Positions 1,509 to 15,885 of a stretch of 32,727 bases of DNA are shown piece by piece. Origin of the DNA: Rhodobium gokarnense (GTDB taxonomy: Bacteria; Pseudomonadota; Alphaproteobacteria; Rhizobiales; Rhodobiaceae). Positions within the stretch are counted from its first letter, which is position 1, and each line of letters begins with the position of its first letter. Made by a program: the position numbers and the translations under genes. The stretch lies in the NCBI RefSeq assembly GCF_025961475.1, contig NZ_JAOQNS010000021.1, forward strand, positions 1 through 32,727. Reading direction: 5' to 3'. The notes beneath the pieces were generated by a model. The model ran no database searches. It worked only from the letters and a program-made list of their open reading frames with translations, and had not been told where the DNA came from.

Positions 1509-3116
1509 TCAGCCCTTTCCGTCTTCCAGGATCATGGCGCTGGCTTTCTCGCCGATCATGATCGTCGGGGCGTTGGTGTTGCCGGAGACGATGGTCGGCA
1601 TGATCGAGGCATCGGCGACCCTGAGGCCCTCGATGCCGTGGACGCGCAGGCGGTCGTCGACGACGGCGCCCGCGTCATGGCCCATCTTGCAGGTGCTGGT
1701 CGGGTGATAGATCGTCTGGGAGATGTTGCGGGCGGCTTCCAGCAGGTTGTCTTCGCCGTCGACCTCGGCCCCAGGCACCTTTTCAGCGACTATGAACGAC
1801 GAGAGGGCCGCGGTTCCGACGAGGCGGCGGGAAAAGCGCATGGCGTCGACCACCGTTTCCTGGTCGCGCAACGCGGAAAGGTAATTGGGAAAAATCTTCG
1901 GATAGGTGCGCGGGTCGGGCGCGGCGATGGCGATGCGGCCGCGGCTTTCCGGGCGCAACTGGCAGACCGAGGAGGTGATGCCGGAGAAGCGGTGCATCTC
2001 GATGCCGGGCTTGTCGGCGGAGAGCGGCTGGACGTGGAACTGGATGTCCGGCGTTTCCAGTTCCGGGCGGGTCTTGGCGAAAATGCAGACCTGGCTGGCG
2101 CCCATCGCCATCGGGCCGGAACGCTTCAGCACGAATTGCAGGCCGATCATGCCGCGGCGGATCAGGTTGTTGATCTCGTCATTGAGGGTCGGGACGTTGA
2201 CCTCGTAGATCATGCGCACCTGCAGATGGTCCTGCAGGTTCTCGCCGACGCCGGCAAGGTCGCGCACGATGGGGATGTCCATCTCCTGCAGCAGCGCGCC
2301 CGGACCGATGCCGCTGAGCTGCAGGATCTGCGGCGAGCCGATGGCGCCGGCGGACAGGATCACCTCGCCGCCGGCCCTCAGCGTCGCGAGCCGCGGCTCG
2401 TTGCCGACGGCGTAGCGGATGCCGTCGACCCGCTCGGGCGCCTCGTTCGCGAACACCAGCCGCTCCACATGGGCGTGGGTCACGATCTCCAGGTTTGGTC
2501 GGTTCTTAGCCGGCTTCAGAAAGGCCGTGGCAGACGAACAGCGCAGGCCGTTTTTCGCGGTGAGCTGGAAGTAGCCGGCGCCCTCCTGGCTGGCGCCGTT
2601 GAAGTCGTCGGTGCGCGGCACGCCGAGTTCCTCGGCGGCGGCGATATAGGCATCGCAGATGTCGCGCCGGGCGCGCAGATTGGTGACGGAGAGCTCGCCG
2701 TCGGCGCCGTGGAAATCGTCGCTGCCGCGCTCCTGGTGTTCCGACCTGCGGAAGAACGGCAGTACGTCGTCATAGGACCAGCCGACATTGCCGAGCTGGC
2801 GCCAGTGGTCGTAATCCTCGCGCTGGCCGCGGATATAGAGAAGGCCGTTGATGGAGGAGGAGCCGCCGAGCACCTTGCCGCGCGGCCATTGCAGGCTGCG
2901 CCCGTTGAGGCCCGGATCGGGCTCGGTCTTGAAGCACCAGTCGGTCCTGGGATTGTGCAGGGTCTTGAAATAGCCGACCGGCACATGGATCCAGGGATTG
3001 GTGTCGCGGCCGCCGGCCTCCAGGAGCAGAACGCGTTTCTTCGGATCGGCCGACAGGCGGTTGGCGAGGACGCAGCCGGCGGATCCGGCGCCGACGACGA
3101 TGTAATCGTACTCCAT
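1509..3116 (-). CDS. iseJ: GMC-family FAD dehydrogenase, probable isethionate dehydrogenase
   Basis: The 535-residue flavoprotein belongs to the GMC (choline dehydrogenase/BetA-like) family. It has the FAD dinucleotide motif GAGSAG at 9-14, the first GMC signature PRGKVLGGSSSIN at 78-90 and the second at about 257-271. The catalytic histidine lies in HPTSTCKMG (His471), and the partner Asn region is SGNTNAP at 511-517. There is no signal peptide. A GGGAG box precedes the ATG. Family members oxidise primary alcohols to aldehydes and pass electrons to a respiratory acceptor. Known isethionate clusters pair a GMC enzyme, IseJ, with a TRAP or MFS transporter, an IclR regulator and xsc, and all of these lie next door here. 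Oxidation of isethionate to sulfoacetaldehyde is therefore the best inference. Choline or another alcohol remains possible from sequence alone. It is divergent from the TRAP operon. Confidence 0.8.
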   Translation of the reverse strand: MEYDYIVVGAGSAGCVLANRLSADPKKRVLLLEAGGRDTNPWIHVPVGYFKTLHNPRTDWCFKTEPDPGLNGRSLQWPRGKVLGGSSSINGLLYIRGQREDYDHWRQLGNVGWSYDDVLPFFRRSEHQERGSDDFHGADGELSVTNLRARRDICDAYIAAAEELGVPRTDDFNGASQEGAGYFQLTAKNGLRCSSATAFLKPAKNRPNLEIVTHAHVERLVFANEAPERVDGIRYAVGNEPRLATLRAGGEVILSAGAIGSPQILQLSGIGPGALLQEMDIPIVRDLAGVGENLQDHLQVRMIYEVNVPTLNDEINNLIRRGMIGLQFVLKRSGPMAMGASQVCIFAKTRPELETPDIQFHVQPLSADKPGIEMHRFSGITSSVCQLRPESRGRIAIAAPDPRTYPKIFPNYLSALRDQETVVDAMRFSRRLVGTAALSSFIVAEKVPGAEVDGEDNLLEAARNISQTIYHPTSTCKMGHDAGAVVDDRLRVHGIEGLRVADASIMPTIVSGNTNAPTIMIGEKASAMILEDGKG

Positions 3117-3181
3117 GGACGGCTCCCAAAATTTTTATCGACATTTTTTATCGGCCGCGTGAATGCGGTCCACTTTTGGCG

Positions 3182-3210
3182 TTTACATTACAATGCATAT
3201 AGCATTAATA
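3182..3210 (+). promoter_or_regulatory. Candidate promoter of the TRAP/iclR operon
   Basis: A TTTACA box (3182-3187) is followed after 17 bases by TTAATA (3205-3210), in an AT-rich patch that stands out from the surrounding GC-rich DNA. The operator-like palindrome begins at the next base, the usual place for a repressor to block initiation. The boxes are only moderately close to consensus. Confidence 0.45.
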
Positions 3211-3229
3211 TTGAGACTGTCAGTCTCAA
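3211..3229. promoter_or_regulatory. Palindromic operator, site 1 (probable IseR site)
   Basis: The sequence TTGAGACTGTCAGTCTCAA is a perfect inverted repeat with 8-bp arms around GTC. Its core GAGACT-N3-AGTCTC recurs upstream of xsc at 7612-7626. It lies in the divergent gap between the GMC gene and the TRAP operon, so it could control both directions. The IclR-family gene at the end of the operon is the obvious candidate binder, since IclR proteins bind short palindromes of this size. Confidence 0.65.
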
Positions 3230-3298
3230 AAAAACATAATTTTGCTCAACGCATATGCAAACGACACGCATATGCAGGCGATAACAGGGAGGAAGCCG

Positions 3299-4534
3299 AT
3301 GCTGACAGCATCCGAGAAGCTCAAGGGAATTTCACGCCGCGACATACTGCGCCTCACCAAGCAGTTCGGGATCACCTCGACGCTGGTCGCGGCTGGCGGC
3401 CTGACCGGCACCGTAACGCTGTCGCGTCTCGCCGAAGCGGCGAACTCCACCTACGAAAAGCGCTTCAAGACGCCGGCCAAGCACACCTGGAAATTCGGTG
3501 CGGCCGGCTTCAACGAGCGCAATCTCCTGATCGAGCGCGCCGGCTGCCTGGAATTCGTGCGCGACATCGAGGAGCGCTCGGACGGCGCCATCCGCATCGA
3601 GTTCATCGGCTCCAACCAGATGTGCGGCCAGCTCGACTGCGTGAAGAAGACCCAGCAGGGCATCACCGACGTGTTCTCTGCCTCGACCCAGAACTCGGCC
3701 GGCGGCGCGCCCTATCTCAACGTCCTCGACTACGCCTACATGTTCCCGACCCGGGCCTCGCAGTACTACTTCTTCTACCATCCGGGCAGCGAGAAGGTGC
3801 TGCGCGAGCCGCTGCGCAAGCGCCACGGCCTGCAGTTCCTGTTCACCCACTGCGAGCTGCGCGGCATCCAGCTTGGCCTCAAATGGAAGGACAAGCCGCT
3901 GGTCAAGAGCGTCAAGGACCTCGCCGGCACCAAGAACCGCGTCACCGGCACCCAGCTCGGCCGCATTGCCATGGAGCTGATGGAGCTGAACCCGACGCCG
4001 ATCGCCTGGGAAGAGACGCTGGACGGCCTCAAACAGGGCCTCATCGACGGCGCGGAGACCTGGGCCGCGGCGGTCGCCTACGCCAACATGTCGCCGGTGG
4101 TCTCGCAGTGCGTCAATCTTGGCTTCTTCTGCGGCACCGAGCACACCTCGATGAGCGCGTCGAAGTTCGATGAGCTGTCCGGCGACCTGCAGGACGCCGT
4201 CATGGAATCGGCCTACCTGACCCAGGTGCAGATCCAGGCGGCGAACGAGGCGGCCCTCGTCAACACCGTCGGCTTCTCCGACCCGCAGCTTCCTGACACC
4301 CTGTTCGCCAAGAACAACGTCCGCGTCGCCATGCTCGACGATGCGGCCCGCCACGAGGCCGAACAGATGTGCTCGCCGGAATTCAAGCCGGAGCCGTGGG
4401 AGAAGTGGCGCGAGCGCCTCAACGACTGGTCCGGCGGCATGGACACCTACAAGACCATCTACGACATCGCCCGGGAGATCCCGGCCGACACCAAGCCGGA
4501 GAACGTCGAGCCGCGGCGCTGGTGGAAGGGCTAA
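3299..4534 (+). CDS. iseK: TRAP transporter solute-binding protein (DctP family)
   Basis: From the ATG at 3299 the product has 411 residues. An AGGGAGG box six bases upstream supports this start over an upstream ATG at 3242. The N-terminus carries a twin-arginine type leader (SRRDIL at 12-17, hydrophobic stretch to about 42, AEA cleavage site near 47), so the protein is probably exported folded to the periplasm. The rest matches the DctP solute receptor of TRAP transporters, including the central region around TGTQLGRIAMELM and the pocket region around EETLDGLKQGLIDGAE. It would bind an organic acid and deliver it to the membrane subunits encoded just downstream. Beside xsc and the GMC enzyme, isethionate is the likely ligand; another sulfonate is possible. 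A hairpin follows the gene before the permease genes. Confidence 0.85.
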   Translation: MLTASEKLKGISRRDILRLTKQFGITSTLVAAGGLTGTVTLSRLAEAANSTYEKRFKTPAKHTWKFGAAGFNERNLLIERAGCLEFVRDIEERSDGAIRIEFIGSNQMCGQLDCVKKTQQGITDVFSASTQNSAGGAPYLNVLDYAYMFPTRASQYYFFYHPGSEKVLREPLRKRHGLQFLFTHCELRGIQLGLKWKDKPLVKSVKDLAGTKNRVTGTQLGRIAMELMELNPTPIAWEETLDGLKQGLIDGAETWAAAVAYANMSPVVSQCVNLGFFCGTEHTSMSASKFDELSGDLQDAVMESAYLTQVQIQAANEAALVNTVGFSDPQLPDTLFAKNNVRVAMLDDAARHEAEQMCSPEFKPEPWEKWRERLNDWSGGMDTYKTIYDIAREIPADTKPENVEPRRWWKG

Positions 4535-4560
4535 TCGGGCCCGTCGTCCGAGACATCGGC

Positions 4561-4590
4561 AAGGGTGTGGTCGGCCCGCCGCACCCTTTT
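4561..4590 (+). terminator. Hairpin between solute-binding and permease genes
   Basis: AAGGGTG (4561-4567) pairs with CACCCTT (4582-4588); the stem extends inward with a G-T wobble and two G-C pairs, and a short T-run (TTTT, 4587-4590) follows. It lies 26 bp after the solute-binding gene and 136 bp before the small permease gene. Such an attenuator or mRNA-stabilising hairpin would give more binding protein than permease. The short T-run makes full termination unlikely. Confidence 0.45.
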
Positions 4591-4726
4591 CCGTCGATGG
4601 CCGCCTTGAGGAACGCCCCCGGTATCGCTTCTGCGTGCCGTCGGTGTTGCCTCAAGGCGTGCCGTTGACCGGTCCGGCCCGCCCGCGCGAACATCAATCT
4701 CAAATTGCAGATAAGGGAGGGAGTGC

Positions 4727-5245
4727 ATGCCCGTCATCCGGTGGCTCGACCGCAACGTCGAGCGCGTCGTCATCCTCGTGAGCTACACGGTGATGGCGCT
4801 GATCGTCTTCGTGGAGGTGATCCGTCGCTTCACGATCAACGAGCAGGCGCCCTGGAGCAGCACCATCCCGGTCTACCTGTTCCTGTGGATCGTCTGGGCC
4901 GGCTGCGCCTACAATGTGCGCATCCGCACCCATCTGCGCTTCGACGAACTGAGGGTCCGGCTCCCCTATACCGTGCAGTTCCTCTGCCTCCTGCTCGATG
5001 CGGCGCTGTGGATCATCTTCTCCGCGATCGTCATCTATTTCACCGTGCACCAGGTGCAGCTCGCCAGGGACAATTTCGCCATCGTCCAGGGCACCGACGA
5101 CGTCATGCAGTGGTGGTTCTACCTGGCAACGCCGCTCGCCTTCTCGCTCCTCATCGTGCGCGTCTTGCAGAACGTCTATGAGGACGTCGCCAAGTACCGG
5201 CGCGGCGAGTCCCTCGACATCCAGACCAGCATTCTCGGCGATTAG
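4727..5245 (+). CDS. iseL: TRAP transporter small permease (DctQ family)
   Basis: The 172-residue protein has four hydrophobic segments (about 13-33, 48-67, 84-108 and 126-146) and the EVIRRF...PWS pattern typical of DctQ small permeases. It forms a membrane complex with the large subunit and helps dock the solute-binding protein. The ATG at 4727 is preceded by AGGGAGGGAG. The stop lies 11 bp before the large permease start, so the two are translated from one message. Substrate is inferred from the operon, not from this sequence. Confidence 0.85.
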   Translation: MPVIRWLDRNVERVVILVSYTVMALIVFVEVIRRFTINEQAPWSSTIPVYLFLWIVWAGCAYNVRIRTHLRFDELRVRLPYTVQFLCLLLDAALWIIFSAIVIYFTVHQVQLARDNFAIVQGTDDVMQWWFYLATPLAFSLLIVRVLQNVYEDVAKYRRGESLDIQTSILGD

Positions 5246-5256
5246 AGGGTCACCCC

Positions 5257-6693
5257 ATGGATCAACAAACCCTCATCTTCCTGATCTCGATCGGCGTCAC
5301 GCTCCTGTTCCTCATCGGCGTGCCGATCTTCCTGGTCATCGGCTTCTGGGTCATCGGCGTCAGCATCGTCATCGACTTCACCCTCGCCAATCTCGGCGTC
5401 ACCCTCTATGAGGGCCTCAACTTCTTCGGCCTTCTGGCGCTGCCGCTCTTCATCCTTACCGGCGATCTCATCAACGGCGCCGGGATTGCCAAGCGGCTGT
5501 CCGATTTCGCCTATTCGATCCTCGGCTGGCTGCGCGGTGGCCTCGCCATGGCGGCGCTCGGCGCCTGCGGCCTGTTCGCGGCCATCTCCGGCTCCAATTC
5601 GGCCACGACGGCGGCGATCGGCTCGATCATGCATCCGGAAATGGTCAAGGGCGGCTACGACGAGAACTTCGCCGCCGCGACCGCTGCTTCCGGCGGCACC
5701 GTCGGCATCATCATCCCGCCGTCGATCATCTTCATCGTCTACGGCTTCCTGATGAACCTTTCCATCAGCGACCTGTTCATCGGCGGCCTGTTGCCGGGCG
5801 TGATGATGGTCGCGGCCATGCAGGCGGCGTGCTGGTGGATCTGCCACAAGAACGGCTGGGGCCATCTGATCCAGTTGCGCCTGAAGCGGATCATCGGCAC
5901 GGCCTTCGGCGCCTGGCTCGGCTTCTTTGCCATCGGCCTGGTGCTCTGGGGCATCTATACCGGTGCTTTCTCGCCGACCGAGGCGGCGGGCGTCACCGCG
6001 GGCTTTTGCGCCATTGCCGGCCTCGTCTGCTATCCGATCCACAAGGTCCTGATGCGGATCCAGGACCGGCGCGGGCGCCCGCAGGTCGGCGACGACGTCG
6101 CGCCGGACGCGGAGGGCGGCGCCCATGTGGCGGAAATCGACAGCCGCGGCATCCTCGGCAACCTCGTGGTGCCGGGCTTCAGCCCGCTGGAGCTGCCGAC
6201 GCTGATCATGCGCTCCGGCCAGATCACCGGTCTGCTTGCGCCGCTGATCGCGATTTCCGTCGTCATGCAGCAGATCCTGACGCTGCTCGGCGCCAAGGCG
6301 TTCGTCACCGGCATGCTCGGCGAACTGGGCGGCTACTACGCCATCCTCTTTGCCTGCATGGGCATCGTGCTGATCGCCGGGACGATCCTGGAAAGCCTTC
6401 CCAACACCATCATCCTGGCACCGATCCTGGCGCCGATCGCCGCCTCCATCGGCGTCGACCCGATCCACTTCGCCGTCATCTTCCTGATCGGCGATGCCAT
6501 CGGCTTCATCACCCCGCCCTACGGCCTCAACCTCTACGTTGCCAGCGGCATCACAGGCATTCCCTATTTCCGGCTGCTGCGATACACCATGCCCTACCTT
6601 TTCGCGCTCATCGCCGTCTGGGTGATCGTGGCGCTGGTGCCGCAGCTATCGACGATCCTGCTCTTCAATACAGGAGCGGGCGTCTACCAGTGA
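5257..6693 (+). CDS. iseM: TRAP transporter large permease (DctM family)
   Basis: This 478-residue protein is an ion-coupled TRAP large subunit with roughly 12 membrane segments. Family landmarks are the Gly-rich GDLINGAGIAKRLSDFAYS region, the SGSNSATTAAIGSIMHPEM motif and IIIPPSIIFIVYG; a matching second half includes GDAIGFITPPYGLNLYVAS. These contain the hairpins that line the sodium and substrate sites. It is longer than the usual 425-430 residues because of a polar stretch at about 261-310, rich in Arg, Asp and Gly, in the middle of the chain. Its TGA overlaps the ATG of the regulator gene (TGATG), indicating translational coupling. It should import the sulfonate bound by the upstream solute receptor. 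Confidence 0.87.
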   Translation: MDQQTLIFLISIGVTLLFLIGVPIFLVIGFWVIGVSIVIDFTLANLGVTLYEGLNFFGLLALPLFILTGDLINGAGIAKRLSDFAYSILGWLRGGLAMAALGACGLFAAISGSNSATTAAIGSIMHPEMVKGGYDENFAAATAASGGTVGIIIPPSIIFIVYGFLMNLSISDLFIGGLLPGVMMVAAMQAACWWICHKNGWGHLIQLRLKRIIGTAFGAWLGFFAIGLVLWGIYTGAFSPTEAAGVTAGFCAIAGLVCYPIHKVLMRIQDRRGRPQVGDDVAPDAEGGAHVAEIDSRGILGNLVVPGFSPLELPTLIMRSGQITGLLAPLIAISVVMQQILTLLGAKAFVTGMLGELGGYYAILFACMGIVLIAGTILESLPNTIILAPILAPIAASIGVDPIHFAVIFLIGDAIGFITPPYGLNLYVASGITGIPYFRLLRYTMPYLFALIAVWVIVALVPQLSTILLFNTGAGVYQ

Positions 6694-7508
6694 TGACGGA
6701 GGCCTTCTTGCCGGGACATTCGGAACGCGACGACGAGACCGGCGAAGGTCGCGTTCCGACCGGCATCCGCAGCCTGATCATCCTGGAGGAACTGGCCCGC
6801 ACCGGGACGCCGATGACGGCAACGGAGATCACCGCGGCCCTCGGCCTGCCGAAGCCGACCATCCACCGGCTTTGCCAGCAGCTCGAGGCGGAGGGGTTCC
6901 TGGAGCGCGATCTCGACGGGCGGCGCTACCTGCCGGGACGGCGCATGCGCGAGACGGCCGCCGGGGTCACCCAGTTCTCGTCGATCTTCCAGGAGCGGCA
7001 CGCCATCCTGGAGCGGGTGTCGACCCGGCTCGGCGAGACCTGCAACATCGTTAGCCACGACAAGGACGGCATGTTCTATCTCGACCGGGTGGAATCGCGC
7101 TGGCCCCTGAAGGTCGACCTGCCGGTCAGCGGGCGGGTGCCGTTCCACTGCACGGCCAGCGGCAAGCTCTACCTGTCGAGCCTCAGGAAGGCCCAGCGGC
7201 ACACGCTGGTCCATGCGCTCACCTTGCGCAAATACGGCCCCAACACGCTGACGGCGCCGGAAGCGCTGATGGCCGAGGTGGAGGCGACGGCGAAGCGCCG
7301 CTACGGGATCGACAACGAGGAATTCATCGAGGGCATGGTGGCGCTGGCCGTGCCGGTGCGCGATGCCGGGGGGCGGCTCGCGGCCATCCTCGCCGTGCAC
7401 GGACCGGTCCAGCGCATGAGCCTTGAGGACGTCATCGGCCACCTTCCCGTGCTGCGCGAGGGCGCCGAACAGCTTGCCGCCGTCATCAACGCGGAAGCGG
7501 CGGGCTAG
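6693..7508 (+). CDS. iseR: IclR-family transcriptional regulator
   Basis: The 271-residue product has the IclR layout. A winged helix-turn-helix lies at about 24-75 (RSLIILEELARTG, then PMTATEITAALGLPKPTIHR). An effector-binding domain runs from about 90 to the C-terminus (FHCTASGKLYLS, RRYGIDNEEFIEGMVALAVP, AAILAVHGP). The ATG overlaps the permease stop, so it is the last gene of the TRAP operon. Known isethionate clusters encode an IclR protein, IseR, as local regulator. The matching palindromes at 3211-3229 and 7612-7626, one at each transcription unit, are the expected binding sites. Their position just behind a -10 box suggests repression relieved by the substrate or an intermediate, but this is inference. 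Confidence 0.88.
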   Translation: MTEAFLPGHSERDDETGEGRVPTGIRSLIILEELARTGTPMTATEITAALGLPKPTIHRLCQQLEAEGFLERDLDGRRYLPGRRMRETAAGVTQFSSIFQERHAILERVSTRLGETCNIVSHDKDGMFYLDRVESRWPLKVDLPVSGRVPFHCTASGKLYLSSLRKAQRHTLVHALTLRKYGPNTLTAPEALMAEVEATAKRRYGIDNEEFIEGMVALAVPVRDAGGRLAAILAVHGPVQRMSLEDVIGHLPVLREGAEQLAAVINAEAAG

Positions 7509-7582
7509 GGCGATGGGCGGGGCGCGATCCGGCGCGGTTTTCCGCGGGCGCGGGCTCGCCAAAGGGAATACGGGAAAAACCG

Positions 7583-7610
7583 TTGACAACTGCGGCATAT
7601 CGTCTAATTA
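7583..7610 (+). promoter_or_regulatory. Candidate promoter upstream of xsc
   Basis: TTGACA (7583-7588) is a perfect -35 box. It is followed after 16 bases by the AT-rich TAATTA (7605-7610); TCTAAT at 7603-7608 is closer to consensus but at a short 14-base spacing. The palindrome begins at 7612. The arrangement repeats that seen before the TRAP operon. Confidence 0.5.
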
Positions 7611-7611
7611 C

Positions 7612-7626
7612 GAGACTGCAAGTCTC
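7612..7626. promoter_or_regulatory. Palindromic operator, site 2 (probable IseR site)
   Basis: GAGACTGCAAGTCTC has the same six-base arms and three-base spacer as site 1 at 3213-3227, and in both cases the palindrome is followed by CAAAAA-like sequence. Two such sites in 4.4 kb, each immediately behind a candidate -10 box, are unlikely by chance. The expected binder is the IclR protein encoded just upstream. Confidence 0.65.
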
Positions 7627-7929
7627 AAAAACAGAGCAATTTGCATGGAACGCGGAGGCGGGAATCCCGCCGGTGTGGTGACCAGGTGGAGCCGGCGATA
7701 CGGTTTCCCCTTCGCGGCAAGAAAAGCCGACCGACTTGCATCAATGGGCCTCAACGTGTGTGTAACGCTAGAGTGAGCTGAGAAACCGCCAGACCGTCGG
7801 ACACGACCGTTCCATCGGCCCTATGATCTTCGCGACAAGCCGTCCCGCGCCTGCCGTCTGATACCGCTTCGGACCAATGCCCGACCTTTTGTCGCGATAC
7901 CTTCGATCGCACCAAGGAGTGTATCCCCC
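7627..7929 (+). other. Long xsc leader region without a clear gene
   Basis: About 300 bases separate the candidate promoter/operator from the xsc start codon. The stretch contains a short GC hairpin (GGCGGG/CCCGCC, 7657-7662 and 7666-7671) and a 43-codon open frame at 7645-7776 with no good ribosome binding site. No known riboswitch or terminator is recognisable. It may be an untranslated leader, or xsc may have a second promoter inside it. Confidence 0.3.
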
Positions 7930-9705
7930 ATGAGAATGTCCACCGAAGAAGCCTTCATCAAAGTCCTCCAGATGCACGGCATCGATCAGGCCTTCGGCAT
8001 TATCGGCTCGGCGATGATGCCCGTGTCCGACCTGTTCCCCCAGGCCGGCATCAAGTTCTGGGACTGCGCGCACGAGACCAATGCCGGCTATATGTGTGAC
8101 GGCTACACACGGACGACCGGCAAGATGGCCATGGCCATCGCCCAGAACGGGCCCGGCGTCACCGGCTTCGTCACCTCCATCAAGACCGCCTACTGGAACC
8201 ACACGCCGATGCTGCTGGTGACCCCGCAGGCCGCCAACAAGACCATCGGCCAGGGCGGCTTCCAGGAGGTCGACCAGATGGCGATGTTCCGCGACATGGT
8301 CGCCTATCAGGAAGAGCTGCGCGACGCCTCGCGCGTCGGCGAAGTGCTCAACCGGGTGATCGAGAAGGCGTGGCGCGCCTCGGCGCCGGCACAGATGAAC
8401 GTGCCGCGCGATTTCTGGACCCAGGTCGTCGACATCGAGCTGCCGCAGATCGTGGCGCTGGAGCGCACCTCAGGCGGCCGCGGTTCCATCAAGCAGGCGG
8501 CGGAATTGCTGTCGGAGGCCAAGTTCCCGGTGATCCTGTCCGGCGGCGGCGTCGTCATCGGCAACGCCATTGGCGACTGCGCGGCGCTGGCCGAGAAGCT
8601 CGACGCCCCGGTCTGCTCCGGCTACCAGCACAATGACAGCTTCCCGGGCTCGCACCCGCTCGCCGTCGGCCCGCTCGGCTACAACGGCTCCAAGGCCGCC
8701 ATGGAGCTGATCTCCAAGGCCGACGTGGTGCTGGCGCTCGGCACCCGTCTCAATCCGTTCTCGACCCTTCCCGGCTATGGCATCGACTATTGGCCGAAGG
8801 ACGCCAAGATCATCCAGGTCGACATCAATCCGGACCGCATCGGCCTGACCAAGAAGGTCTCCGTCGGCATCTGCGGGGACGCCAAGCTGGTCGCCCAGGA
8901 CATCCTGGCGGCGCTGTCGCCGAGCGCCGGCGATGCCGGTCGCGACGAGCGCAAGGCGCTGATCCACCAGACCAAGTCGGCCTGGCTGCAGACGCTGTCC
9001 TCGATGGACCACGAGGACGACGATCCGGGCACGACCTGGAACGAGCGCGCCCGCGACCGGGATTCGGACCTGATGTCGCCGCGCCAGGCCTGGCGGGCAA
9101 TCCAGGCGGCGCTGCCGAAGGACGCCATCATGTCCACCGACATCGGCAACAACTGCGCCATCGGCAACGCCTATCCGACCTTCGAGACCGGCCGCAAATA
9201 CCTGGCGCCGGGCATGTTCGGCCCCTGCGGCTACGCCTTCCCGGCGATCCTCGGCGCCAAGATCGGCTGCCCCGACGCCACCGTGGTCGGCTTTGCCGGC
9301 GACGGCGCCTTCGGCATCTCCATGAACGAGATGTCGGCCTGCGGCCGCGACGACTGGCCGCCGATCACCATGGTCATCTTCCGCAACTACCAGTGGGGTG
9401 CGGAAAAGCGCAATACGACGCTCTGGTACGCCGACAACTTCGTCGGCACGGAGCTCGACCGCGACGTCTCCTATGCGAAGATCGCCGAGGGCTGCGGTGC
9501 CAAGGGCGTGCAGGCGCGCTCGATGGAAGAGCTGACCAGCGTCCTCAACACGGCCATCGAGGACCAGAAGAAGGGCATCACCACCTTTGTGGAGGTGCTG
9601 CTCAACCAGGAACTCGGCGAGCCGTTCCGGCGCGATGCCATGAAGAAGCCGGAGAAGATCGCCGGCGTCGACCCGGCCGACATGCGCCAGCAACCCGGCG
9701 CGTAA
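7930..9705 (+). CDS. xsc: Sulfoacetaldehyde acetyltransferase
   Basis: The 591-residue protein is a thiamine-diphosphate enzyme matching Xsc throughout. Typical stretches are GIIGSAMMP(V/I)SDLFP, CAHETNAG with the cofactor-activating Glu49, NKTIGQGGFQEVDQMAMF, GYQHNDSFPGSHPLAVGP and PGYGIDYWPKDA. The ThDP/Mg motif starts at GDG (457-459) and runs into RNYQWGAEKRNTTLWY. Xsc converts sulfoacetaldehyde plus phosphate to acetyl phosphate and sulfite, the shared desulfonation step of taurine, isethionate and sulfoacetate catabolism, in the cytoplasm. The start ATG follows an AGGAG box (7915-7919), and an alternative ATG lies two codons in. A Rho-independent terminator follows. No phosphate acetyltransferase gene lies immediately downstream, although xsc and pta are often adjacent. 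The identification distinguishes it from acetolactate synthase relatives. Confidence 0.97.
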   Translation: MRMSTEEAFIKVLQMHGIDQAFGIIGSAMMPVSDLFPQAGIKFWDCAHETNAGYMCDGYTRTTGKMAMAIAQNGPGVTGFVTSIKTAYWNHTPMLLVTPQAANKTIGQGGFQEVDQMAMFRDMVAYQEELRDASRVGEVLNRVIEKAWRASAPAQMNVPRDFWTQVVDIELPQIVALERTSGGRGSIKQAAELLSEAKFPVILSGGGVVIGNAIGDCAALAEKLDAPVCSGYQHNDSFPGSHPLAVGPLGYNGSKAAMELISKADVVLALGTRLNPFSTLPGYGIDYWPKDAKIIQVDINPDRIGLTKKVSVGICGDAKLVAQDILAALSPSAGDAGRDERKALIHQTKSAWLQTLSSMDHEDDDPGTTWNERARDRDSDLMSPRQAWRAIQAALPKDAIMSTDIGNNCAIGNAYPTFETGRKYLAPGMFGPCGYAFPAILGAKIGCPDATVVGFAGDGAFGISMNEMSACGRDDWPPITMVIFRNYQWGAEKRNTTLWYADNFVGTELDRDVSYAKIAEGCGAKGVQARSMEELTSVLNTAIEDQKKGITTFVEVLLNQELGEPFRRDAMKKPEKIAGVDPADMRQQPGA

Positions 9706-15439: not shown

Positions 15440-15455
15440 GCCGGGGAACCCCGGC
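15440..15455 (-). promoter_or_regulatory. Riboswitch expression-platform hairpin
   Basis: On the minus strand, nine bases after the end of the riboswitch, GCCGGG pairs with CCCGGC around GTTC. It lies between the aptamer and the first gene, so it is a candidate part of the switch that affects transcription or translation. No T-run follows, which argues against a simple intrinsic terminator. Confidence 0.4.
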
Positions 15456-15463
15456 GGCGGGCG

Positions 15464-15652
15464 ATGGCAGGTCTCCTGGCTCGCGGGTCGTCGCGCTACC
15501 CCGCCTTCCCGGCCTTTTGGGGCCAGTGGCGGTTTGGGGCAGCGCTCGCCGCATACAGTTGCGGGGGCAGCCACGGACTTGACTCGGCCGAAAGGCAAAA
15601 GCCGTACCGTGTTCCCTTTTCATCCCCGAAAAGCGATTCCGGGGAACCATCG
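15464..15652 (-). ncRNA. Cobalamin (B12) riboswitch
   Basis: Read on the minus strand, the region carries the conserved blocks of the cobalamin aptamer in order: GGTTCC, GATGAAAAGGGAACACGGT, GTGGCTGCCCCCGCAACTGT, GCCACTG, GGGAAGGC and finally GAGCCAGGAGACCTGCC (ending near 15466). It precedes the DUF4198 gene by about 170 bases and should reduce expression of the whole metal-transporter operon when adenosylcobalamin is plentiful. Such riboswitches usually control cobalt uptake or corrinoid genes, so this is the best in-sequence clue to the transporter's metal. Confidence 0.95.
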
Positions 15653-15885
15653 CGGCCACTATCGAAGGCGCGTTCCGGCTTGTCAATCGGACATCGCACC
15701 CGGTATGCGAAAGGCCGACGGCAAGGTGCGCCGCAGGGAGGCGGCGACGGGGGCGGCGCTGTGGGGCGCGACAATCTGTTGCCTTGCCGTCGCCGCTTCG
15801 TGCCCCACGTCCGGGATTTGGTGGTTGTAATATGTCATAAATGCCCGCGCCGCCCATTCCAGCACGCCAACAAGGGGACCCAGTC

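Follow-up and report, generated by a model that had tools for sequence, protein, structure and literature searches.

Phytoplankton release the sulfonate isethionate, whose exchange has been inferred from transcripts of the genes that break it down (PMC9870897). In the closest described system, that of Ruegeria pomeroyi DSS-3, iseR (SPO2355) is the isethionate dissimilation regulator and iseJKLM (SPO2356-2359) encode a dehydrogenase and a tripartite ATP-independent periplasmic (TRAP) transporter (PMC4334477). The R. pomeroyi transcripts enriched near Micromonas include iseJ, iseK and the sulfoacetaldehyde acetyltransferase gene xsc (PMC9870897). Here we analyzed a 32,727-nucleotide stretch of Rhodobium gokarnense DNA (contig NZ_JAOQNS010000021.1, positions 1 to 32,727; "the window" below) in which a short palindrome stands once ahead of an ise-like transporter operon and once ahead of xsc. 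We consider it highly likely that IseR, the IclR-family regulator encoded in the same cluster (6693-7508), has this palindrome, TGAGAC-N5-GTCTCA, as its operator; IseR is predicted from the sequence to repress the ise operon and xsc until a ligand is present. The R. pomeroyi iseR is presumably of IclR type as well.

The window cluster is complete, comprising a GMC dehydrogenase, DctPQM, an IclR gene and xsc, and the identical set is found in many relatives. The R. pomeroyi ise cluster has the same gene set, also adjacent (PMC4334477). Its xsc gene (SPO3561) lies elsewhere, beside pta (SPO3560), whereas xsc in the window is attached to the ise cluster.

Operators of the IclR family have been surveyed and two consensus types were described (Suvorova and Gelfand 2021; PMC8222616): group 1, GKTYCRYW3-4RYGRAMC, and group 2, TGRAACA-N1-2-TGTTYCA, in which 3-4 bases separate TGRAAC from GTTYCA. 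DctPQM and TauABC are named there among co-regulated transporter subunits. The main text of that survey contains none of the terms sulfo, taurine, TRAP, GMC, Rhodobact or TGAGAC (the sites are listed in supplementary tables outside the search), and the available part of PMC4334477 describes no operator for iseR. A literature search of titles and abstract openings returned nothing concerning an IseR operator. The first-pass annotation of this DNA had held that no operator is known for this type of regulator; that is too broad, as IclR-type operators are well described (PMC8222616), but for this particular regulator none was found in the sources covered.

Two matching palindromes and their rarity in the genome

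A sequence scan confirmed the two copies of the 15-bp inverted repeat GAGACT-N3-AGTCTC reported earlier, at 3213-3227 (GAGACTGTCAGTCTC) and 7612-7626 (GAGACTGCAAGTCTC), both exact. Operator 1 is more symmetric than had been noted, with nine-base arms flanking a single base (TTGAGACTGTCAGTCTCAA). The window holds a single additional place at 3 mismatches from the palindrome, 5222-5236. In the whole R. gokarnense genome (5,096,651 bases) the 15-mer gave 34 places at ≤2 mismatches, with the two window sites as the only exact ones and no place at 1 mismatch. The backward pattern used as a control gave 36 places at the same cut-off. With the 17-mer TGAGACTNNNAGTCTCA only two places were found at ≤2 mismatches (backward control, 1), and these are the two window sites, because both window sites qualify; a third site that would widen the regulon in this genome was not found at that cut-off. 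By simple arithmetic, a 12-letter word should match exactly ∼0.3 times in 5.1 Mb. Two exact sites in one cluster, each directly behind a promoter-like pair, are far beyond chance, and a chance palindrome is ruled out by this genome-wide rarity together with the permutation tests in relatives described below.

Some weaker places in the same genome were recorded. One 15-mer place at 2 mismatches (contig C16, 13723) falls within a phosphotransacetylase-domain match, and GATACTGTCAGTATC on contig C2 (282997) is an additional near-match. A further 6-N3-6 palindrome, GATGCTGACAGCATC, at 3298-3312, overlaps the iseK start codon and has CTG-N-CAG in common with operator 1; with 24 palindromes of this form in the window, it may have arisen by chance in coding sequence.

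Conservation of the site in relatives

Neighborhoods of regulator homologues were fetched and the cluster genes located by tblastn; gene starts are tblastn ends, so that the region edges are approximate (L and G numbers denote loci and genomes). A readable divergent region was present in 46 of the 64 loci around regulator matches (L024-L058, L109-L137), and the other 18, where the neighboring gene was missing, cut or not adjacent, were left out of the main test. Including the window there were 47 regions, from which four near-duplicates were removed and the window set aside, leaving 42 non-redundant regions. The query was window site 1, TGAGACT plus its mirror (14 letters, the flanking letters having been added after the relatives' regions were viewed), and as a control the half-site letters were rearranged in each of the 629 other possible orders. 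The best match had ≤1, 2, 3 and 4 mismatches in 18, 23, 27 and 36 of the 42 regions, respectively. In the same regions the permuted half-sites gave means of 0.003, 0.03, 0.41 and 2.99, and none of the 629 equaled the real counts. The spacer between TGAGAC and GTCTCA is fixed at 5 bases: with it 39 of 54 regions matched at ≤2 mismatches, compared with 0-2 regions at each of ten other spacers. When the TGAGAC box was combined with the group 2 spacers of 3 and 4, only 2 and 1 of the 54 regions matched at that level.

The 18 left-out loci were scanned whole. A match at ≤2 mismatches was found in three (L034, L123, and L036, which is Rhodobium orientis again); among the rest, five had places at 3 mismatches only and ten had none at ≤3. 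A second set was collected through DctP and consisted of eight of the nine matches outside the window in a search of 385 genomes of the class plus four plasmid loci (Ruegeria, Paracoccus, Leisingera); the plasmid records fetched were 5 of 13 from one search and 2 of 94 (H26, H32) from another. Matches at ≤1, 2 and 3 mismatches occurred in 3, 7 and 10 of these 12 loci, which was reached by 0 of 629 permutations. Among these four plasmid loci the match has 3 mismatches in that of Ruegeria and both of Leisingera and 2 in that of Paracoccus; no plasmid match to the window ise intergenic region itself was found. In Billgrantia/Modicisalibacter the site was present at ≤2 mismatches in one of three loci.

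The site thus recurs at iseR/iseJKLM-like loci across Alphaproteobacteria. The first-pass annotation had proposed the two palindromes as operators of a small regulon, and the search of related loci bears this out in that the palindrome is present at orthologous loci and is confined to this locus in its own genome. By eye, the deeper homologues L046 and L051 (L048 and L052 less clearly) have alternating boxes, GTCTCA-N5-TGAGAC-N5-ATCTYA.

Promoter geometry

Both candidate promoter pairs stand where they had been placed, TTTACA at 3182-3187 with TTAATA at 3205-3210, and TTGACA at 7583-7588 with TAATTA at 7605-7610. Over 7581-7631 R. orientis is identical at 51 of 51 positions. A mechanical promoter scan shifted the ise pair by one base (TTTACA-N18-TAATAT, 9/12) and also returned TTGAGA-N18-CATAAT at 3211-3240 (10/12), the first box of which lies inside the palindrome; in either reading the palindrome overlaps a promoter.

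We then aligned the strong sites (≤2 mismatches), oriented toward the transporter or regulator gene. A -35-like TTG begins 27-30 bases upstream in 20 of 31 of them (18 at -29 or -28; no more than four at any other offset). In the window, the TTGACA ahead of xsc at -28 fits this spacing, and the TTTACA of the ise operon is at -30. Because the TTG is kept at a near-constant distance, the palindrome is predicted to lie probably over the transcription start, which would be the usual position for a repressor that excludes polymerase. The predicted geometry is consistent with a repressor site, but the mechanical scans read the promoters differently.

The IclR family includes activators as well as repressors, PcaU and PobR being activators, and IseR might bind the palindrome as an activator, or act both ways depending on ligand. 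The plasmid sites of Leisingera and Ruegeria would agree with such a role, being weaker (3 mismatches) and having upstream boxes that look poor by eye. However, activators are usually positioned upstream of the -35 element, whereas the window site cores start one or two bases behind a -10-like box and the -35-like TTG stands at nearly one distance in the majority of strong sites. We regard activation as unlikely.

Association of the site with the regulator

We searched 297 genomes of the order for exact TGAGACN5GTCTCA and for the regulator. There were 41 exact sites in 34 genomes, and regulator matches in 41 genomes. The 14 genomes with both hold 20 sites, of which 11 lie ≤5 kb from the regulator gene vs. 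0.06 expected; after removal of the two Rhodobium genomes, 9 sites remain vs. 0.05 expected. Six of the 11 near sites come from genomes outside the first 61 that were used to set the pattern (G061, G062, G083, G096, G125, G282). Counted per genome, motif and regulator were both present in 14, motif only in 20, regulator only in 27 and neither in 236 (Fisher 2e-5); the corresponding counts for the backward pattern were 5, 10, 36 and 246 (P 0.04). Presence per genome is weaker evidence than position.

The gene content of individual loci shows that the site accompanies the regulator and not the transporter. At L117 only iclR and xsc were found among the query genes, in divergent orientation with a perfect site between them. 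For L037, L038, L041 and L116 an orthologous transporter was not found within the fetched stretch, and the site lies between iclR and the dehydrogenase gene; at L034 it is ∼90 bases upstream of iclR. Conversely, the TRAP operon on a Desulfolutivibrio plasmid (L174), which encodes a binding protein of 47% identity and has a sigma-54-interacting regulator gene beside it in place of iclR, shows no site at ≤3 mismatches.

The site could also be read by a different regulator, such as an IclR paralogue or a general sulfonate regulator, the linked IclR gene being incidental. In its favor, a loose search with the IclR query gave 22 candidates in the R. gokarnense genome, and many exact sites have no iseR match nearby. 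The excess of sites ≤5 kb from the regulator gene is against it, as is the presence of the site beside iclR even where other cluster genes were not found (L117, L034). Furthermore, the Rhodobium genome G001 contains xsc, and neither a regulator match at 1e-55 nor an exact site was found in it. We judge this possibility very unlikely. The recognition helices were nearly uninformative here: PKxTxHR is present in all 30 proteins with a site at ≤2 mismatches, but also in 16 of 22 others.

Among the distant exact sites, that in G261 is ahead of a dehydrogenase-xsc pair on another contig. In G044 and G083, two species within one genus, a perfect TGAGACTTAAAGTCTCA lies between fumarase and molybdopterin oxidoreductase genes (L138:8922-8938 and L139:1670-1686).

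The xsc site and the xsc leader

We scanned 34 xsc upstream regions. The site is present in the window and in R. orientis, and six of the other 32 match at ≤3 mismatches, one of them (L137) inside an iclR-type gene. The permutation test used 16 regions; the window, R. orientis, G001, a duplicate, regions behind the dehydrogenase gene and regions with a second or different regulator were omitted. In this test 5 of 16 regions matched at ≤3 mismatches (permutation mean 0.18), which 0 of 629 permutations reached. With L117 and L127 taken out, as their sites may also act on iclR, the count was 3 of 14, which 5 of the 629 permutations reached. The 16 omitted regions besides the window and R. orientis contained one 3-mismatch place (L137) and none closer.

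In six genomes xsc is apart from the regulator, on another draft contig in five and ∼9 kb away in one. Three of the six (G282, G044, G117) match at ≤3 mismatches, and none of the 629 permutations did as well. Control in trans is suggested by this result, the matches at 2-3 mismatches being a lead and not a proof. In L028, L029, L112-L114, L124 and L169, xsc follows closely behind iseJ on the opposite side of the divergent site, so that a single divergent site can serve the whole pathway in those relatives. The paired geometry proposed by the first-pass annotation is less general in its xsc half: both window sites are real and the ise site is conserved, but conservation of the xsc site extends to far fewer relatives. 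At L030 (∼14128; G018:C6:390127-390143) a second site, TGAGGCTATAAGTCTCA, lies ∼170 bases past the xsc end, before a weak (36%) DctM match.

The leader of xsc is itself unusual in the comparison with R. orientis. The 212 bases of 7722-7933, ending in the xsc start codon, are identical between the two, and no other identical stretch within the 9.7 kb compared is as long; by contrast, identity is 84-90% at the third codon positions of four genes and 85-91% in other non-coding DNA except the promoter-operator piece. A promoter-like pair was found by the mechanical scan at 7798-7827. The segment 7722-7933 likely holds a second regulatory element or promoter. We rejected an RNA element at xsc: the fold of the leader is ordinary and not unusually stable (z 0.35), and Rfam gave no family there, its sole match in the window being a cobalamin riboswitch (Table 1). 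Relatives of the leader were found among 61 genomes only in R. gokarnense itself and R. orientis, with none in the plasmid collection.

An RNA hairpin or terminator would agree with an inverted repeat beside an A/T run, but this reading is hardly credible and was rejected: the + strand run behind the repeat is A and not T, a scan of 3000-3400 and 6600-8000 gave no terminator-like site, and the half-site letters are conserved beyond what pairing alone would ask.

Genes and features of the window

The coordinates are collected in Table 1. The regulator has matches above cut-off to PF09339 (50 bits) and PF01614 (106 bits), i.e., the IclR helix-turn-helix and C-terminal ligand domains, and its copy in R. 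orientis DSM 11290 is 95-96% identical. Its start codon shares one base with the dctM stop; as the last gene of the operon with this one-base overlap, iclR is probably transcribed with the transporter genes and autoregulated. By context, the product of 1509..3116 would be isethionate dehydrogenase, and isethionate is assigned as the substrate of the cluster by context only. The TRAP binding protein had no match among solved structures at 1e-20.

Table 1. Genes, predicted operators and other elements located in the window.
Feature	Position	Strand	Basis or remark
GMC-family dehydrogenase, iseJ-like	1509..3116	-	Pfam/NCBIfam; gene set as R. pomeroyi SPO2355-2359
Promoter-like pair TTTACA-N17-TTAATA	3182..3210	+	For TRAP-iclR operon; operator 1 core starts two bases on
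Operator 1 (predicted), TTGAGACTGTCAGTCTCAA	3211..3229 (15-bp core 3213-3227)		Between iseJ-like and iseK-like genes; kept in relatives
TRAP substrate-binding protein DctP, iseK-like	3299..4534	+	Pfam/NCBIfam
TRAP small permease DctQ, iseL-like	4727..5245	+	Pfam/NCBIfam
TRAP large permease DctM, iseM-like	5257..6693	+	Pfam/NCBIfam
IclR-family regulator, iseR-like, 271 aa	6693..7508	+	Profile matches; recognition helix LPKPTIHRL
Promoter-like pair TTGACA-N16-TAATTA	7583..7610	+	For xsc; operator 2 core starts one base on
Operator 2 (predicted), CGAGACTGCAAGTCTCA	7611..7627 (15-bp core 7612-7626)		Upstream of xsc
xsc, sulfoacetaldehyde acetyltransferase	7930..9705	+	TIGR03457 959 bits, cut-off 676
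Cobalamin riboswitch	15449..15666	-	Rfam, 140 bits

Proposed mechanism

We propose that IseR would bind as a dimer immediately downstream of the -10 box, covering the transcription start. Occupancy of site 1 would block the iseKLM-iseR operon, and probably the divergent iseJ also, and occupancy of site 2 would block xsc. Isethionate, or sulfoacetaldehyde derived from it, would release IseR, and uptake, oxidation and desulfonation would then be induced jointly. IseR would also limit its own synthesis. The transcripts associated with Micromonas fit this model and are no test of it, since PMC9870897 ties xsc to taurine also. The sites, their near-uniqueness, the fixed spacer, the promoter geometry and the conservation of the sites beside homologues of iseR are seen in the sequence itself, and from these binding by IseR, repression and the ligand are inferred.

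A number of observations weigh against the model. No match at ≤3 mismatches was present in 15 of the 42 divergent regions, some of them beside deeper homologues where the boxes are arranged differently, possibly as three, or in two plasmid loci found via the regulator (Paracoccus denitrificans and Alisedimentitalea); the P. denitrificans locus does have iclR, the dehydrogenase gene and xsc. At the same cut-off the site is missing from 26 of the 32 other xsc upstream regions and from 11 of the 16 in the permutation test. The mechanical scan upstream of xsc did not return the 7583..7610 pair. In the order, 30 of the 41 exact sites lie >5 kb from any regulator match; most of these are presumably chance, and those between the fumarase and molybdopterin oxidoreductase genes are orthologous and on contigs other than the regulator's. 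The 5 kb limit was chosen after the places had been seen, an effect that the low expectation makes small. In R. gokarnense no third site lies near the pta-type genes (17-mer, ≤2 mismatches).

Comparison with known IclR-family operators

We regard the result as a strong and specific regulatory prediction of an ordinary kind, in which the palindromes are very probably operators. An operator known to the letter would let genomes with isethionate-switched genes be predicted, and the pattern would help to find unlinked regulon members such as xsc; two short DNA fragments would suffice to test the regulator. The chances are about even for a broader view, that a widespread IseR clade of Alphaproteobacteria and some Gammaproteobacteria has a third IclR operator arrangement for its C2-sulfonate regulon, with unlinked xsc regulated in trans and a three-box version of the site in deeper clades.

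The kind of operator is a known one of the IclR family, to whose catalogue the IseR operator would add a spacing variant. It shares with group 2 (PMC8222616) the order of the boxes (TGRAAC ... GTTYCA), which are of similar sequence, and a position near gene starts. The window motif differs from it in its spacer of 5, one to two bases longer, and in its box, TGAGAC, with G at the fourth base. Group 1 operators belong to the same family and have a similar box in reversed form, but their boxes face the opposite way and, by eye, the window sites have no third box in that arrangement (PMC8222616). The alternating boxes of the deeper homologues L046 and L051, also judged by eye, resemble the three-box IclR sites described in the same survey (PMC8222616).

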